Position numbers and translations under genes: made by a program. The notes beneath the pieces are model-generated. The model was not told the DNA's origin. It was given only the letters and a program-made list of their open reading frames with translations, and did not search any database. From assembly GCF_002094975.1 (NCBI RefSeq), contig NZ_CP015283.1:1287501-1351500 (forward strand): a DNA stretch of 64,000 nucleotides. Reading direction: 5' to 3'. Origin of the DNA: Streptococcus salivarius (GTDB lineage Bacteria; Bacillota; Bacilli; Lactobacillales; Streptococcaceae). Below, piece after piece: positions 15,657 through 23,718 of the stretch (positions are counted from its first letter, which is position 1; every line of letters starts with the position of its first letter).

Positions 15657-17228
15657 ATGTCAAATAAAGAAAACAGAGAGATTGAAGAGCTCCAAAATAA
15701 AATTTGGAAAATTGCGGATGATGTCCGTGGAGCGGTTGATGGTTGGGATTTCAAACAATATGTTCTAGGAATTCTATTTTATCGTTTTATTTCAGAAAAC
15801 ATGGCTGCATATTTTGATAAAGCTGAACATGAAGCAGGCGACTTAGAATTTAGCTATGCAAATTTGAGTGATGAAGAGGCAGAAGAAGATTTCAAACCAG
15901 GGACTGTCGAGGATAAGGGATTTTTCATTCTTCCAAGTCAGCTTTTTAAAAATGTTGTGAAAAATGCGTCTAAAAATCAAGAGCTAAACACTGATTTAGC
16001 AAATATCTTTCAGTCTATAGAGGAATCAGCAATTGGTCACAAGTCTGAAGATGCTATCAAAGGTTTGTTTGATAACTTAGATACACGGAGCAATATCTTA
16101 GGTGGAACAGTTGCAGAAAGAAATAAACGTTTATCTGACATATTAAATGGCATTAATAGTATTAACTTTGGAAATTTTGAAGAAAATGATATAGATGCTT
16201 TTGGTGTCGCTTATGAATTCTTGATATCCAATTATGCCAGTAATGCAGGAAAAAGCGGAGGTGAATTTTTCACACCACAGACTGTATCTAAATTACTCGC
16301 AAAACTAGTTATGGTGGGAAAAGATAAAATCAATAAAGTTTATGACCCCACTTGTGGATCGGGATCACTATTACTACAAATGAAAAAACAGTTTGAAGAT
16401 CATATTTTGGAGGATGGATTTTTTGGGCAAGAAATTAATATGACCAACTTTAACTTGGCTCGTATGAATATGTTCTTGCACAATATCAACTACAATAACT
16501 TCGATATCAAGCGAGGAGACACCCTTTTAAATCCTCAGCATTTAGATGAAAAACCGTTTGATGCTATTGTTTCTAACCCTCCTTACTCTGTCAAATGGGT
16601 GGGAGATGAAGATCCAACTCTCATAAATGATGACCGTTTTGCTCCAGCAGGGAAACTAGCTCCTAAGTCAAAAGCTGACTTTGCCTTTATCATGCATAGT
16701 CTAAACCACTTGTCTAATAGAGGTCGAGCAGCCATTGTTTGTTTCCCTGGTATTTTCTACCGTGGTGGTGCAGAGAAAAAAATACGTCAATATTTAGTAG
16801 ATAATAACTTTGTAGAAGCGGTTATTCAGTTACCTGACAATTTATTTTACGGAACTTCTATTGCGACCTGTATTCTGATTTTGGCAAAGAATAAGTCGAC
16901 GAATGATGTTCTTTTTGTTGATGCTAGTAAGGAATTCAAAAAAGAGCCTAAAAATAATGTCTTAGACCCTATCAACATCAAGAATATCCTTGAATTATTC
17001 GCTAATTATCAAAGTGTGGATTATAAAGCAGCCCTTGCTGGTAATGATGTGATTGGTTCAGAGCAGGATTATAACCTTTCTGTATCAACCTATGTCGATA
17101 AAGAAGATACACGTGATAAGATTAAAATTGATGTGCTCAATAAAGAAATAGCAGAGACCGTTTCAAAAATTGACCACCTACGTTCAGAAATTGACAAAAT
17201 AGTAGAGGAACTGAGCTATGGTAAATGA
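15657..17228 (+). CDS. hsdM: Type I restriction-modification methyltransferase subunit HsdM
   Basis: HsdM methylates adenine in the bipartite target chosen by HsdS and is needed for both modification and restriction complexes. The N-terminal helical HsdM_N domain covers about 10-160. SAM motif I is DPTCGSG at 230-236 and the catalytic motif IV is NPPY at 307-310, as in N6-adenine methyltransferases. The 523 residues match type IC enzymes such as EcoR124I HsdM. It overlaps the next gene by 11 bp and opens a tightly packed five-gene operon with compact junctions. Confidence 0.95.
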
Positions 17229-18216
17229 TGTGATTCTCTATAGAACAGATGATGGCGAGTCAGCTATTGAGCTACATTTGGATAATGGAACAGTCTGGCT
17301 GACCCAACAGGAACTAGCTGAGCTTTTTCAAACTTCCAAGCAAAACATTAGTAAACATATCAAGGCGATCTTTGAAGATGGTGAATTATCGGAGGAGGCA
17401 ACTGTCAACTATAAGTTGACAGTTCAAAATGAGGGGAGTAGAAGTGTTCAGCGAAATGTTGCTTACTATAATCTCGATATGATTTTAGCGATTGGCTACC
17501 GTGTGCGCTCTCCTCGTGGAATCCAGTTCAGGAACTATGCTTCGACAGTCTTGAAAGAGTATCTGATCAAAGGTTTTGCGATGGATGATGAACGCTTGAA
17601 AAACTTGGGTGGAGGCTCTTATTTTAAAGAACTTCTAGAAAGAATCCGAGACATTCGCTCGAGTGAAAAAGTCTTTTACCGTCAGGTTTTGGATCTTTTC
17701 GCGACATCTAGTGATTACAATGCAAATTCACCAGAAGCAAAGAAATTCTTTGCGACGGTTCAAAACAAGATGCATTATGCTATTCACCACAATACTGCGA
17801 GCGAACTCATCTACAATCGTGTTGATAGTAAAAAGGAGTTTATGGGCTTGACTACCTTTAAGGGAGACCTCCCTACTCTATCTGAAGCAAAGGTTGCCAA
17901 GAACTATCTGACAGAGAAGGAACTTCGTGGGCTTAATCAGCTGGTATCAGGATATCTAGACTTTGCTGAAAGACAGGCAGAGCGAGAAGAAGTCATAACC
18001 ATGGCAGACTGGGTGACACATGTAGACCGCATCCTTCAGGCTACTGGCGAAGACTTACTTGATAACAGTGGCTCTATCTCTCGGGAACAGATGAAGCAGA
18101 AGGTAGATAAGGAATATAAGAGCTACCAAGCCAAGACCCTCAGTCAAGTTGAAAAAGATTACCTCAAGGAAATCAAAAGTATTGAAAATCTAGCCAAGGA
18201 AGGAGGGAAATCATGA
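17218..18216 (+). CDS. RhuM family protein within the restriction operon
   Basis: The 332-residue protein matches the RhuM virulence-protein family (PF13310), named from Salmonella SPI-3; its molecular role is not settled. Residues about 25-55 ([26 protein letters not shown]) look like a winged-helix or helix-turn-helix DNA-binding segment. The family blocks [26 protein letters not shown] and [12 protein letters not shown] are present. It overlaps hsdM by 11 bp and hsdS by 4 bp (ATGA), so translation is coupled. RhuM genes recur beside type I systems, which suggests a defence-related accessory or regulatory role; that is inference. Confidence 0.85.
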
Positions 18217-19376
18217 ACATCCTAGAAGAAATCCAAAACTGTCCCGTTGAGTGGAAAGAGTTGGAGGCAGTGGTTGATACTGTGACATGTCCAATAAAGT
18301 TAACTAAAAAGGAGTATCAAGTAACAGGCAAAATACCAATTGTTGATCAGGGTGAACAATTCATAGCAGGTTATTCAGATAATGAAAAATATCTTGAAAA
18401 AGACGAATATATCATTTTTGGGGATCACTCAGAGCATGTAAAATATGTAAATTTCGCTTTTATTCAAGGAGCTGATGGTTTAAAAATTTTGAAACCTAAG
18501 AGTGGTATAAAAGCAAAATATTTATACTATTGCTTTTGTAATTTTTATAAGAGGGAAGGAAGTTATAAAAGACATTGGAGTAAGGCAAGAACTACTCTTA
18601 TACCAATTCCTCCTCTAAAAATTCAAGAGAAAATCGTGCAAATACTTGACAAATTCACCGATTATGTTACAGAATTGACCTCAGAATTGACCTCAGAATT
18701 GACCTCACGTAAAAAGCAATATTCTTATTATCGAGATAAACTTTTGTCCTTTGAGGATGAGGTTTATCAGGTTGAGTGGAAAACACTCTCGGAAATAGCA
18801 AAAGATTTTGGTCGTGGAAAATCGAAACATCGGCCTAGAAATGACGTAAGACTATATGGTGGTGATATACCATTCATACAGACTGGAGATATAAGAGAGG
18901 CTGGTAAATGGATTGAAAACTATTCTCAGACTTATAGTGAATTTGGATTACAACAAAGTAAGCAGTGGGAAAAGGGAACATTATGTATCACAATTGCTGC
19001 TAATATAGCGGAAACTGGATTATTAGGATTTGATGCATGTTTCCCTGATAGTATTATAGGGTTTGTTGCAAATCCAGAATTTGCCATTACAGAATATGTT
19101 TACTACTATTTAAATTCAATAAAAGATTATCTTGCAAATAAGAGTTATGGTAGCGCACAGGATAATCTTAATTTATCTACATTTTCATCTTTGAAAATCC
19201 CAGTTCCTTCTCTAGAAATCCAATCTCGGATTGTTCAAGTTTTAGATAACTTTGACATGGTTTGTAATGATTTAAATATAGGACTCCCCAAGGAGATTGA
19301 ACTACGTCAAAAACAATATGAATATTGGAGAAAAATGATGTTCAATTTTAATAAAAAAGGTGACAGTATACTATGA
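18213..19376 (+). CDS. hsdS: Type I restriction-modification specificity subunit HsdS
   Basis: HsdS picks the two half-sites of the DNA target. It has two target-recognition domains (about 10-150 and 185-365), each followed by a conserved helix: RKKQYSYYRDKLLSF (about 166-180) and ELRQKQYEYWRKMMF near the C-terminus. The central helix carries a tandem repeat TSEL encoded by three perfect 12-bp units (18671-18706). In EcoR124I, a TAEL repeat at the same place sets the spacer length of the target. The 387 residues are typical. It overlaps its neighbours by 4 bp on each side. The target sequence cannot be predicted. Confidence 0.93.
   Translation: MNILEEIQNCPVEWKELEAVVDTVTCPIKLTKKEYQVTGKIPIVDQGEQFIAGYSDNEKYLEKDEYIIFGDHSEHVKYVNFAFIQGADGLKILKPKSGIKAKYLYYCFCNFYKREGSYKRHWSKARTTLIPIPPLKIQEKIVQILDKFTDYVTELTSELTSELTSRKKQYSYYRDKLLSFEDEVYQVEWKTLSEIAKDFGRGKSKHRPRNDVRLYGGDIPFIQTGDIREAGKWIENYSQTYSEFGLQQSKQWEKGTLCITIAANIAETGLLGFDACFPDSIIGFVANPEFAITEYVYYYLNSIKDYLANKSYGSAQDNLNLSTFSSLKIPVPSLEIQSRIVQVLDNFDMVCNDLNIGLPKEIELRQKQYEYWRKMMFNFNKKGDSIL
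18671..18706 (+). repeat. Three perfect 12-bp tandem repeats in hsdS (TSEL spacer repeat)
   Basis: The unit AGAATTGACCTC is repeated three times without mismatch, in frame, and adds four residues per copy to the helix between the two recognition domains. Such repeats expand and contract by slippage. Confidence 0.95.
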
Positions 19377-20590
19377 CAGAATTCGAAACATTGGAAAGCC
19401 TTGCGGCAAATCTTATTACAAAAAAATCAAAGAGTTCCCTTCTATATGCTTTTAATGGAAGTGGAAAAACTAGACTATCTATGGCTGTTAAGGAAAAATT
19501 GGATAGCGATGAACTTGGTCAAATTCAGAATATGGGGATAGACGAAAAGAAAATTTTTTATTTTAATGCATTTACAGAAGATTTATTTTCTTGGGATAAT
19601 GATTTGCAAAACGATTGGGATAGAAAATTAAATATAAATCTAGAATCAACATTTTTGAAGTATATTCTTGAAGAACAGGGAAAGGAAAATGAGATAATTG
19701 ATTTATTTCAAGATTACCTTGGAATTTTTCCAGAAGGTAATGATTTGAGAACTAAACAGCAAATTATTTTACCAAGTTTCCAAGACAACTTTACGACAGT
19801 TAAATTTTCAAAAACTTACACTGCCAAAAATGGAAATGGTGAAGATGAAAGAATTACAGAGAATAATATAAAAATTTCTAAAGGAGAAGAAAGTAGTTTT
19901 ATCTGGAGTATTTTCTATACATTTCTGAATGAAGTTATTCTAACTAAGAATGATGATCAGGACTCCTTTCCAAATTTAAAGTATATTTTTATAGATGATC
20001 CTGTTTCCTCTTTAGATGACAGAAAAATTATTGAAATGGCTGTTGATTTAGCTAGTTTAATAAAGAAAAGTAACTTTACAAAAGCAACTGAAACTGTTCC
20101 TAGATCTAGTGGTTTAAAATTTATTATCACAACTCATCATCCACTATTTTTTAACGTATTATTTAATGAGTTGAAAAGTGATTCATGTAGTAGATTTGTA
20201 CTTGAACACAAGTTACAATTGACTACTGGTGATGAAACCTACCATTTGAAAGAAACCTCTGATTCTCCATTTGCTTACCACTTGAAGGTTATAGATATAA
20301 TAGATGAAGCTATTAAAGAGAATCAATTAGAAAAATATCACTATAATTTATTAAGATCACTTTTTGAAAAAACATCTACATTTTTAGGATATAGATCATG
20401 GGAAGAAATTATACCTGAGAGTGAAAAAGATAAGGTTCATAGAAGATACTTAAATTTGTTCAGTCATGACAAACAATCGGTTGAAGAATTTCCAGATATA
20501 ACAGAAGATGATAAAGAACAATTTAAAGTGATTTATAAGTCGTTTATTGAGAAATACTATTTCAATACAGATATTAGTCATTTGAACTAG
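19373..20590 (+). CDS. ABC-type ATPase between hsdS and hsdR, candidate PrrC-like anticodon nuclease
   Basis: The 405-residue protein has an ABC-type nucleotide-binding domain: Walker A FNGSGKT (27-33), signature ISKGEESS (168-175), Walker B YIFIDDP (204-210), D-loop SSLDD (212-216) and an H-switch TTHH (253-256). After it, Arg328 and Glu332 (RSLFE) and His365 (NLFSHD) reproduce the spacing of the EcoPrrC catalytic triad Arg320, Glu324, His356. Length (396 in PrrC) and position between hsdS and hsdR of a type IC locus also match the prr locus. PrrC is a tRNA-Lys anticodon nuclease kept silent by the restriction complex and released by phage anti-restriction. The ATPase is certain; nuclease activity is inferred. 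Confidence 0.65.
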   Translation: MTEFETLESLAANLITKKSKSSLLYAFNGSGKTRLSMAVKEKLDSDELGQIQNMGIDEKKIFYFNAFTEDLFSWDNDLQNDWDRKLNINLESTFLKYILEEQGKENEIIDLFQDYLGIFPEGNDLRTKQQIILPSFQDNFTTVKFSKTYTAKNGNGEDERITENNIKISKGEESSFIWSIFYTFLNEVILTKNDDQDSFPNLKYIFIDDPVSSLDDRKIIEMAVDLASLIKKSNFTKATETVPRSSGLKFIITTHHPLFFNVLFNELKSDSCSRFVLEHKLQLTTGDETYHLKETSDSPFAYHLKVIDIIDEAIKENQLEKYHYNLLRSLFEKTSTFLGYRSWEEIIPESEKDKVHRRYLNLFSHDKQSVEEFPDITEDDKEQFKVIYKSFIEKYYFNTDISHLN

Positions 20591-20620
20591 AATGTACATA
20601 GATTAGTGAGGAAGCATGCT

Positions 20621-23600
20621 ATGGTTGATTATTCAAAAATACATGAAGTAATTGCGGAAACAAATGAAGGTATTCTCTTGGCTGAGTATCAACCAGAGTA
20701 TCGTACAGATAGGGAGTATCAGTCAGAAGCTGATTTAGAAAATCAGTTGATTTCTGATTTGGTGAATCATCTCAACTATGAACGCTTAAATATTCATACA
20801 CCTGAAGAGCTCTTAGCAAATGCCAAGGTGCAAATAGAAAAACTCAATAAGGTAACCTTTACGGATGCTGAGTGGAATCGCTTTGTAGTAAAGTATCTGG
20901 ATTGTCCAAATGAAGGATTAGTTGAAAAAACTAGAAAAATTCAAGAGAATTATATCTATGATTTTGTCTTTGATGATGGACGAATTAAAAATATTTTCAT
21001 CCTTGATAAGAAAAACATTCATAACAACAGCATGCAGGTCATTAACCAAGTGACTCAAGTAGGCAGCCATACTAACCGTTATGATGTCACTATATTGGTA
21101 AATGGCCTTCCTTTAGTTCAGATTGAATTGAAGAGACGAGGGGTTAGTCTTAAAGAAGCTTTCGAACAAATCCATAGATATAGCAAGGAAAGCTTCAATA
21201 GCGAAAATTCTTTATACAAATATATTCAGATTTTTGTTATTTCAAACGGTACGTATACTCGTTACTTTGCAAATACGACGGCTCAAAATAAAAATCATTA
21301 TGAATTTACGTGCGAGTGGGCGGACCGTAAAAATAGGACAATTCATGATTTAGAAGATTTCACCAACTATTTTTTGAGTAAACGTGTGCTTTTGGAAGTC
21401 TTGACAAAGTACTGTGTATTTGATGCTGATAACACCTTGTTAATCATGAGACCTTATCAAATTGCAGCAACAGAGAGTATTCTGTGGAAAATTAAATCAG
21501 CTAACGACAATAATAACTTTGGAACATTAGATGCCTGTGGTTATATATGGCATACAACAGGTTCTGGAAAAACCTTAACAAGTTTTAAAGCTGCACGACT
21601 TGCAACGAGTTTAGACTATATTGATAAGGTATTCTTTGTTGTTGATAGAAAAGATTTAGATTACCAAACGATGAAGGAGTACCAAAAATTTCAGCCAAAT
21701 TCAGTAAATGGAAGTAGTAGTGCAAAAGAATTAAAACGTAATATTGAAATGTCAGATGATAAAATTATTGTTACGACGATTCAGAAGCTAAATAATTTCA
21801 TTACAAAGAACACTGACCATCCTATTTATGACAAAAAATGTATTTTGATTTTTGACGAGTGTCATCGTTCTCAATTTGGTAAAGCGCAAAAGAGAATCAA
21901 GAAAGCCTTTAAGAAGTTTTCATTATTTGGTTTTACAGGAACTCCTATCTTCTCAGCGAATACATTAACTGGTGAGACAACCCAAGATGTATTTGGTAAA
22001 ATGTTACATTCCTATGTTATTACCGATGCCATTAGGGATAAGAAGGTATTAAAATTTAAAGTAGACTATAACTATATTAAGCCAGAGTTGAATAAATACC
22101 GAGAGGCAGAGCAAGCAGTAGGGGTAATTGGAGAAGAGATTGATGAGAAGAAGTTGAAAAAAATTGAAAAGGAACTTCTTAATCATCCTGAACGTATCAC
22201 TACTGTAACAAAATATCTTTTGGATGTTTATGATGTTAAGACCCACAGGAATCAACTTTATACACATAAACAAAAACAGTTAGCTGGTTTTAATGCCATG
22301 TTTGCTGTTCAGAGTGTAGAGGCCGCAAAGCTTTATTATGATGAAATCAAAAAGCAACAAGAATCTCTTCCAGAATCCAAACGTTTAAAAATCGCAACAA
22401 TTTTCAGTTTTGCCCCTAACGAGGAACAATCAGCCTATGGTGAAATTCAAGATGAAGAATTAGAATCTTTGAATATTGAAATGCCTAAATCATCAAAAGA
22501 GTTTCTTGAGAAAGCTATTGATGACTACAATCAAATGTTTAAGACGAATTTTTCTACTGAAGGAAGAGAATTCCAAAACTATTATCGTGATCTGTCTAAG
22601 CGTGTTAAGGCAAAAGAAGTCGATTTGCTTATTGTTGTAGGGATGTTCTTAACAGGTTTTGATGCTCCAACTTTGAATACTTTGTTTGTCGATAAAAACC
22701 TTCGTTATCATGGTTTGATTCAGGCCTTTTCTAGGACTAATCGTATCTTTAACAAAGTTAAACCTTTTGGTAATATTATTTGTTTCCGTGATTTAGAGAA
22801 AGCAACACAGGAAGCTATAAAGACCTTCGGTGATTCTAATAAAGTGGATATTATTCTTGAAAAAAGCTTTGATGAGTATATGGAAGGTTTCACTGATGAA
22901 TTAACTGGTGTTTCAGTAAAAGGTTATGTAAGTGTTTGTAAGGAAATTCTAGAGAAATTCCCGAATCCACAAGAGATTTATACTGAGAAAGATAAAAAAG
23001 AGTTTGTTAACTTATTTGGTGAATTACTTAAATTAGATAATGTATTAAGAAACTATGACGAATTTCAAGAAATTGAAAAACCAATTTCTGAAGGATACAT
23101 GCAGGATTTGAGAAGTACCTATGTTGAGATTCGAGATGAGTTCTTAAACTTAAAAAATTATGAAAAGAACAATGATTTAGATATTGATCTCTCAGATGTT
23201 GAATTTGAAGTTGAACTGTTGAAAACTGATGAAATCAATCTTGATTATATTCTTTCCTTAATTTTAGATAAATCAAAGGATTCAAATTCTAAGGAAGAGT
23301 TAAAAGCTGAAGTTAGTCGGGTTATTCGTTCAAGTATTGATATTAGAGCCAAAGAGGACTTAGTTCTTGACTTTATCAATGAAACAAACTTAGATGAACT
23401 GAAAACTAATGATGATATCCTTTCAGCCTTTTACAATTATGGGAAACAGCGCAAAGAAGCTGAAATCAAAGTATTAGCAGAGTCTGAAAACCTTAATGAT
23501 GGTTATCAATTATTTATTGAAAAAGCCATTCAAAGAGGTTTCGCAGAAAATAACGGTACAGATTTAGATGCTATTATTCCACCGACTTCTCGCAGACGAG

Positions 23601-23674
23601 GAGCTCGTGAGCGTAAAAAACAAGAAGTTCTAACCAAGATTCAGAAATTAGTTGAAATATATGAAGGTATCTAA
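20621..23674 (+). CDS. hsdR: Type I restriction endonuclease/translocase subunit HsdR
   Basis: HsdR translocates DNA with ATP and cleaves at a distance from the unmodified site. I start at ATG 20621, 6 bp after GAGGAAG, rather than the in-frame GTG at 20606. The PD-ExK nuclease is seen as Asp155 and Glu169-Leu-Lys171 (QIELKRRG), near the EcoR124I residues 151, 165 and 167. Motor motifs follow: Walker A TTGSGKT at about 312-318 and DECH in IFDECHRSQFG near 404. The C-terminus is a helical assembly region. Length (1017) and motif numbering point to type IC. It ends the operon before a strong terminator. Confidence 0.95.
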   Translation: MVDYSKIHEVIAETNEGILLAEYQPEYRTDREYQSEADLENQLISDLVNHLNYERLNIHTPEELLANAKVQIEKLNKVTFTDAEWNRFVVKYLDCPNEGLVEKTRKIQENYIYDFVFDDGRIKNIFILDKKNIHNNSMQVINQVTQVGSHTNRYDVTILVNGLPLVQIELKRRGVSLKEAFEQIHRYSKESFNSENSLYKYIQIFVISNGTYTRYFANTTAQNKNHYEFTCEWADRKNRTIHDLEDFTNYFLSKRVLLEVLTKYCVFDADNTLLIMRPYQIAATESILWKIKSANDNNNFGTLDACGYIWHTTGSGKTLTSFKAARLATSLDYIDKVFFVVDRKDLDYQTMKEYQKFQPNSVNGSSSAKELKRNIEMSDDKIIVTTIQKLNNFITKNTDHPIYDKKCILIFDECHRSQFGKAQKRIKKAFKKFSLFGFTGTPIFSANTLTGETTQDVFGKMLHSYVITDAIRDKKVLKFKVDYNYIKPELNKYREAEQAVGVIGEEIDEKKLKKIEKELLNHPERITTVTKYLLDVYDVKTHRNQLYTHKQKQLAGFNAMFAVQSVEAAKLYYDEIKKQQESLPESKRLKIATIFSFAPNEEQSAYGEIQDEELESLNIEMPKSSKEFLEKAIDDYNQMFKTNFSTEGREFQNYYRDLSKRVKAKEVDLLIVVGMFLTGFDAPTLNTLFVDKNLRYHGLIQAFSRTNRIFNKVKPFGNIICFRDLEKATQEAIKTFGDSNKVDIILEKSFDEYMEGFTDELTGVSVKGYVSVCKEILEKFPNPQEIYTEKDKKEFVNLFGELLKLDNVLRNYDEFQEIEKPISEGYMQDLRSTYVEIRDEFLNLKNYEKNNDLDIDLSDVEFEVELLKTDEINLDYILSLILDKSKDSNSKEELKAEVSRVIRSSIDIRAKEDLVLDFINETNLDELKTNDDILSAFYNYGKQRKEAEIKVLAESENLNDGYQLFIEKAIQRGFAENNGTDLDAIIPPTSRRRGARERKKQEVLTKIQKLVEIYEGI

Positions 23675-23680
23675 TTTAAG

Positions 23681-23718
23681 AAAAGTCCATAGTCCTGTAC
23701 AGGACTATGGACTTTTGG
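23681..23718. terminator. Perfect 36-bp palindromic terminator after hsdR
   Basis: AAAAGTCCATAGTCCTGT pairs perfectly with its complement on the right arm (23699-23716). It can act in both directions and separates hsdR from convergent msmR. Confidence 0.9.

Follow-up and report, generated by a model that had tools for sequence, protein, structure and literature searches.

Does a restriction operon of Streptococcus salivarius harbor, beside its DNA-cutting enzyme, a nuclease directed against host tRNA, and what is the role of the RhuM gene in its midst? The operon lies at positions 15657-23674 of the 64,000-nucleotide stretch of contig NZ_CP015283.1 analyzed here (the window) and comprises five adjacent open reading frames (ORFs) on one strand, all of them open, in the order hsdM-rhuM-hsdS-prrC-hsdR (Table 1). 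A sequence-only reading of this DNA had listed the five ORFs in this order, had likened the fourth, an ATPase, to the anticodon nuclease PrrC of E. coli and had implied that RhuM is new to such loci. The positions hold, save that the start of hsdR most likely moves from 20606 to 20621. Judged by its sequence, the ATPase is an ordinary member of the PrrC family, a PrrC orthologue within a type IC restriction-modification (R-M) operon, and we consider it very probable, by analogy with E. coli, that this protein is held latent in the Hsd complex and cleaves an anticodon when triggered by a phage.

The fourth gene encodes a PrrC-family protein

The PADLOC profile for PrrC (PDLC02360) matches residues 5-400 of the 405-residue ATPase with 397.4 bits and E=1.4e-119, a match far above chance. 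Of the families that the sequence-only reading had named for such a search, PrrC was found and AAA_13 gave no match at E≤0.001. By tblastn, PrrC relatives are present in 113 of 72,556 plasmid records, every one less than 60% identical and some annotated as 'anticodon nuclease'; phage records gave no PrrC match at E≤1e-5, and the strain's own genome (2.33 Mb, two contigs) no second match at E≤0.001. The order hsdM-hsdS-prrC-hsdR, claimed to be that of E. coli, is indeed seen in the E. coli locus L037, whose anticodon nuclease is 46% identical to the window PrrC in a multiple alignment, and also on one Enterococcus, one Klebsiella and one Zymomonas plasmid.

The N-terminal ABC ATPase motifs and fold are present in the window protein, and the triad Arg328-x3-Glu332 and His365 reads as had been described, with spacings of 4 and 33 residues against 4 and 32 in L037 (399 residues; R323, E327 and H359). 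The published EcoPrrC triad, Arg320, Glu324 and His356, corresponds to the L037 numbering minus 3 (PMC3014915). All three residues are invariant among relatives: they are found in 33/33 sequences of a genus alignment (sequences of at least 330 residues, which excludes L005 and L006, of 173 residues each; the interrupted L028 was not used either) and in 31/31 of a second alignment, A2, the window being counted in both. A2 combines the window with 26 of 33 viral-contig loci (all except L144, L147, L158, L160, L167, L169 and L173) and four of six genome loci. The HEPN Rx4-6H motif is represented by R358-x6-H365, and R358 is found in 31/31 sequences of A2. Asp297 aligns with L037 D290 and is kept in 31 of the 33 genus-set sequences; it would be the EcoPrrC residue D287 if the three-residue offset holds. 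Every sequence feature of the EcoPrrC device that was compared is present in the window protein.

The related RloC proteins share the ABC ATPase and the same triad (PMC2610378), but they have a coiled-coil/zinc-hook insert and are rarely linked to type I R-M genes, whereas the window PrrC has 405 residues and lies in an R-M operon. Its translation, read by eye, holds a single cysteine and therefore neither a CXXC nor an RloC-type zinc hook, and identity with RloC was rejected.

The predicted structure combines a Rad50/SMC-like ATPase head with a helical C-terminal domain, the best matches of which are HEPN toxins, and are weak; Foldseek with the C-terminal model returned no match at E≤0.001. 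The clustering of the triad expected by the sequence-only reading could be examined at the level of helices: R328 and E332 are separated by one turn of helix 321-338, and H365 falls after the next helix, 349-363, in a low-confidence block (mean pLDDT 46). Profile searches for solved structures gave only weak rows for PrrC, among them Rad50 (0.008), CNOT1 (0.003 to 0.7) and a neutrophil-activating protein (0.036), and the structure search for RhuM a single row at E=0.027; none of these was used.

The restriction enzyme is of type IC and three gene junctions overlap

The type IC features previously ascribed to HsdR and HsdS are both borne out. The HsdR C-terminus is of the EcoR124 type (PF12008), and the hsdS spacer holds three exact 12-bp repeats, GAATTGACCTCA, coding TSEL, which on sequence correspond to the TAEL repeats in the spacers of EcoR124 and EcoprrI HsdS (PMC3874165). 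Two or three copies of this unit are present in most relatives where the pattern was found. These marks confirm the type IC assignment of the host R-M system.

The genes overlap at three junctions, hsdM/rhuM by 11 bases (17218/17228), rhuM/hsdS by 4 (18213/18216) and hsdS/prrC by 4 (19373/19376), and the four genes from hsdM to prrC are thus very likely co-translated. The mechanical ORF of hsdR begins with GTG at 20606; since the hsdR of PrrC-less relatives begins with an ATG behind a shared AGGAAGCATGCT-like leader, the real start is most likely ATG 20621. AGGAAGCATGCT is also taken as the boundary of the prrC segment on its 3' side because the sequence common to PrrC-less relatives resumes there. 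A promoter scan found no excess over shuffled sequence (36 found against 32.4 expected).

Table 1. Features of the operon and their coordinates in the window
Feature	Coordinates	Strand	Basis
hsdM, type I DNA methyltransferase subunit, 523 aa	15657..17228	+	Pfam PF02384 E=2.6e-110, HsdM_N; NCBIfam TIGR00497 672.6 bits (cut-off 242.75)
rhuM, RhuM family, 332 aa, cargo of the hsdM/hsdS slot	17218..18216	+	Pfam PF13310 E=5.2e-106; PADLOC PDC-S05 E=1.3e-148
hsdS, two-domain specificity subunit, 387 aa	18213..19376	+	Pfam PF01420 E=1.6e-36, 2 stretches
Three GAATTGACCTCA repeats, hsdS spacer, type IC mark	18672..18707	+	sequence
prrC, predicted latent anticodon nuclease, 405 aa	19373..20590	+	PADLOC PDLC02360 PrrC E=1.4e-119
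Walker A of PrrC (N28-T33, NGSGKT)	19454..19471	+	N28, G31, K32 and T33 in 33/33 sequences
C-terminal helical domain of PrrC, HEPN-like, predicted nuclease, residues 287-405	20231..20587	+	structure model
Arg328 codon (EcoPrrC Arg320 equivalent)	20354..20356	+	alignments, comparison with L037
Glu332 codon (EcoPrrC Glu324 equivalent)	20366..20368	+	alignments, comparison with L037
His365 codon (EcoPrrC His356 equivalent)	20465..20467	+	alignments, comparison with L037
AGGAAGCATGCT, hsdR leader with ribosome-binding-like site	20609..20620	+	side-by-side comparison with relatives
hsdR, type IC motor/nuclease subunit	20621..23674 (likely start; mechanical ORF from 20606)	+	PF12008 EcoR124_C E=2e-56; TIGR00348 591.7 bits; PADLOC REase_I 1217.4 bits
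Terminator-like hairpin 3' of hsdR, 16 pairs	23681..23716	+	weak: 5 such sites in the region against 3.7 expected (shuffles)

Outside the window, many same-genus relatives, with or without PrrC (among loci L041-L060, L124-L143 and L207-L211), carry a 5-bp repeat at which a third specificity domain, following hsdS, is either fused to it or split off. In a pattern scan of 37 rows, two copies of AGAGT go with a fused three-domain HsdS (10/10) and three to six copies with a stop 14 codons further along (10/10); the other rows hold ACAGT units (mostly split), 21 copies of AACGG (L141) or, in four, no repeat. The sequence pattern looks like that of a phase-variable specificity subunit, for which the poly-G hsdS of NgoAV offers a comparison case (PMC7394358).

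Two slots of the operon exchange their contents

Among 284 genomes of the same genus, a PrrC relative was found in 26 (E≤0.001), RhuM in 86 (E≤0.001) and HsdR in 47 (E≤1e-150), and slot contents were compared in the 49 genomes with a PrrC or such an HsdR relative, the window included. Slot 1, between hsdM and hsdS, contains RhuM, Abi_2, Fic, DUF6978 with DUF1828/1829, or nothing. Abi_2 (PF07751) is found there in PrrC-less operons of five genomes (L128, L131, L132, L133 and L143), in four of them beside a rhuM stump comprising the first ~30% of the gene, and DUF6978 with DUF1828/1829 in one genome, where a rhuM stump is also present. A Fic/DOC-family gene (PF02661) takes the slot in two PrrC operons (L047:4468-5067 and L209:1887-2486), in keeping with a remark from 2013 that the positions of RhuM and DOC are alike (PMC3710099). 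Slot 2, 5' of hsdR, contains PrrC, an XRE-IrrE gene, or nothing. The XRE-IrrE gene is found in three PrrC-less operons (L136, L138 and L139; HTH_3 and Peptidase_M78 in L138), and in L138 and L139 it lies between hsdS and hsdR, where other operons have PrrC; in the third operon hsdS is not on the fetched stretch. Pfam named Abi_2 and XRE-IrrE on one protein each, and the other genomes were assigned by tblastn with that protein.

In a genus-wide hand tally, RhuM is intact in 13 of the 22 type IC operons that have PrrC versus 8 of the 18 that lack it (Fisher p=0.53), and RhuM therefore looks like a separate cargo. An operon entered the tally if the fetched stretch contained both hsdM and hsdR, whether or not its genes were intact. 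Thus G096 counts as PrrC-bearing despite its interrupted prrC, as does G102 despite an hsdM of another lineage (36% identical), and operons with split hsd genes (G275, G020, G092 and others) are included. Truncated RhuM (G245, G166, G047, G112 and G092) was scored absent, and the RhuM of G091, with an internal stop, present. Omitted from the 49 are operons incomplete on the stretch (G079, G165, G011, G196, G085, G171 and G259) and those built on another type I backbone (G135 and G083).

Unequal identities point in the same direction. Four operons have a RhuM 91-97% identical to that of the window together with an HsdM of 70-71%, an HsdR of 54-55% and a PrrC of 41-42% identity; conversely, in four operons HsdR is 84-85% identical, but PrrC 37-38% and HsdS 40-42%. 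Such contrasts suggest that RhuM and the hsdS-prrC segment have each moved on their own. From these comparisons, RhuM is most likely a separately exchanged cargo of the operon and not part of the tRNA-cutting device, and its supposed association with PrrC as a fixed partner finds no support genus-wide.

Nor is its presence in a PrrC/restriction locus novel, as the sequence-only reading had implied. In 2013 Anantharaman et al. proposed RhuM as a toxin, in the position of DOC, in loci joining PrrC-like and R-M genes (PMC3710099); these loci have all three components together, as does the window, and neither the window locus nor slot exchange was found in the accessible part of that paper. PrrC has likewise been predicted in S. 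suis and S. thermophilus (PMC12479173, PMC12322248, PMC11514479), and anticodon nuclease activity of an S. mutans protein is cited as unpublished work (PMC2610378). There is thus little new in the locus itself, both streptococcal PrrC and the PrrC/R-M/RhuM combination being already published; it adds a well-preserved operon to a known family, and the comparison adds the two variable slots. Slot exchange was not found in the open-licence literature, where no search was aimed at slot exchange alone.

Proposed latency, release and target

E. coli PrrC is kept latent by EcoprrI, is unmasked by T4 Stp, or by dTTP, in a process that also involves GTP hydrolysis and unmodified DNA, and cleaves tRNA-Lys 5' of the wobble base (PMC3014915). 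In Klebsiella quasipneumoniae, PrrC with its type I system protects against T1 and T7, and PrrC alone arrests growth and targets tRNA-Lys (PMC11555353). The Klebsiella PrrC170 locus resembles the window in joining PrrC to a type I system but differs in its four genes, HsdR, HsdS, PrrC and HsdM, with no RhuM among them in the accessible text (PMC11555353). The window locus shares with EcoprrI/PrrC the gene order apart from rhuM, the type IC enzyme, the ABC ATPase and the R-x3-E...H triad at near-identical spacing; it differs in having rhuM between hsdM and hsdS, in its sequence (46% identity to the E. coli relative), in an E-to-H spacing of 33 rather than 32, and in a recognition segment two residues shorter than that of L037.

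By this analogy, PrrC, an ABC-ATPase/HEPN-type nuclease, would be co-made with the Hsd subunits and kept latent in an HsdMSR complex. A phage factor that disables the restriction enzyme would elicit a nucleotide-driven rearrangement of the ATPase head and free the nuclease, and the freed PrrC would cleave a tRNA anticodon loop, most likely that of tRNA-Lys UUU, halting translation and with it phage growth. The window PrrC thus probably cuts host tRNA when a virus disables restriction, and the two-layer defense, DNA restriction backed by tRNA cleavage, that the sequence-only reading had suggested is grounded in published EcoPrrC biology. The host has two tRNA-Lys UUU genes, with the anticodon loop CTTTTAA, and one CUU gene, as read from 14 scanned loci of the 30 tRNA loci fetched (59 hits in all). 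RhuM, in its own exchangeable slot, would most likely be an independent defense or toxin cargo.

Several points weigh against this model. Cleavage of tRNA by the window PrrC is inferred. The structural support for a HEPN fold is weak, and within the genus set L054 and L055 lack R358 and have no neighboring Arg in its stead. The tRNA-recognition stretch differs from that of L037, the window protein lacking two residues between S298 and P299, and PrrC substrates may vary according to a T4 review (PMC3014915). Of 43 loci outside the genus, a large part of which are incomplete, just 2 have RhuM, and regulation of a five-gene operon cannot therefore be deduced from the systems studied. Finally, in the closest clade (HsdR at least 83% identical to that of the window, plus one broken 81-87% copy) intact RhuM accompanies 7/7 operons with PrrC versus 4/13 without it (p=0.005, for a subset chosen post hoc in which the genomes are not independent), a pattern that leans opposite to the genus-wide tally and is the main evidence against RhuM as a separate cargo.

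Alternative readings

The divergent recognition segment, together with the variation of this region among PrrC proteins noted in the T4 review (PMC3014915), would also fit a PrrC-type nuclease directed at a tRNA other than tRNA-Lys, or at several tRNAs. We regard this as possible but clearly less probable than a tRNA-Lys target, given that Asp297 is so widely kept and that the characterized EcoPrrC and PrrC170 both target tRNA-Lys.

A single dedicated three-layer system made up of RhuM, PrrC and the restriction enzyme, with RhuM as a second effector or a regulator of PrrC, would extend the 2013 proposal but is unlikely. The closest-clade pattern and the published proposal that RhuM is a toxin working together with PrrC and R-M (PMC3710099) speak for such a system; against it stand the genus-wide tally, the near-identity of RhuM in four operons where HsdM, HsdR and PrrC are far less alike, the Fic, Abi_2 or DUF1828/1829 genes that fill slot 1 elsewhere, and the rarity of RhuM outside the genus.

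It is also quite unlikely that the operon serves as a two-slot chassis whose Hsd complex, that of a single type IC enzyme, silences interchangeable suicide effectors (RhuM, Fic or an Abi_2-type protein between hsdM and hsdS, PrrC or XRE-IrrE between hsdS and hsdR) and lets all of them go at once upon loss of restriction. RhuM would then be a second guarded effector. Closely related backbones with and without each cargo provide natural controls for asking whether two or more effectors can be guarded by one restriction enzyme and what part RhuM plays.

Decay does occur in operons of this type, as the two stops in prrC of the genus relative G096 and the split hsd genes of several relatives demonstrate, but with five open frames, intact PrrC motifs and coupled starts in the window it is very unlikely that this operon is decayed and its PrrC silent in this host. 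That the ATPase is a generic ABC/AAA ATPase and not a nuclease, a reading favored by the lack of any Pfam or NCBIfam family for this one protein at E≤0.001 (Pfam named HsdM, RhuM, HsdS and HsdR, and NCBIfam, over its cut-offs, HsdM and HsdR) and of any solved-structure relative at E≤1 by single-sequence search, is extremely unlikely and was dropped in view of the PADLOC match, the invariant triad and the position of the gene.

Neighboring genes

The strain's own genome holds a second HsdR with an EcoR124-type C-terminus (C1:1974805-1975617; 102.4 bits). In two relatives a further gene adjoins a PrrC-less copy of the operon, an AbiH gene at L134:8691-9842 and a reverse-transcriptase gene at L131:855-2231.
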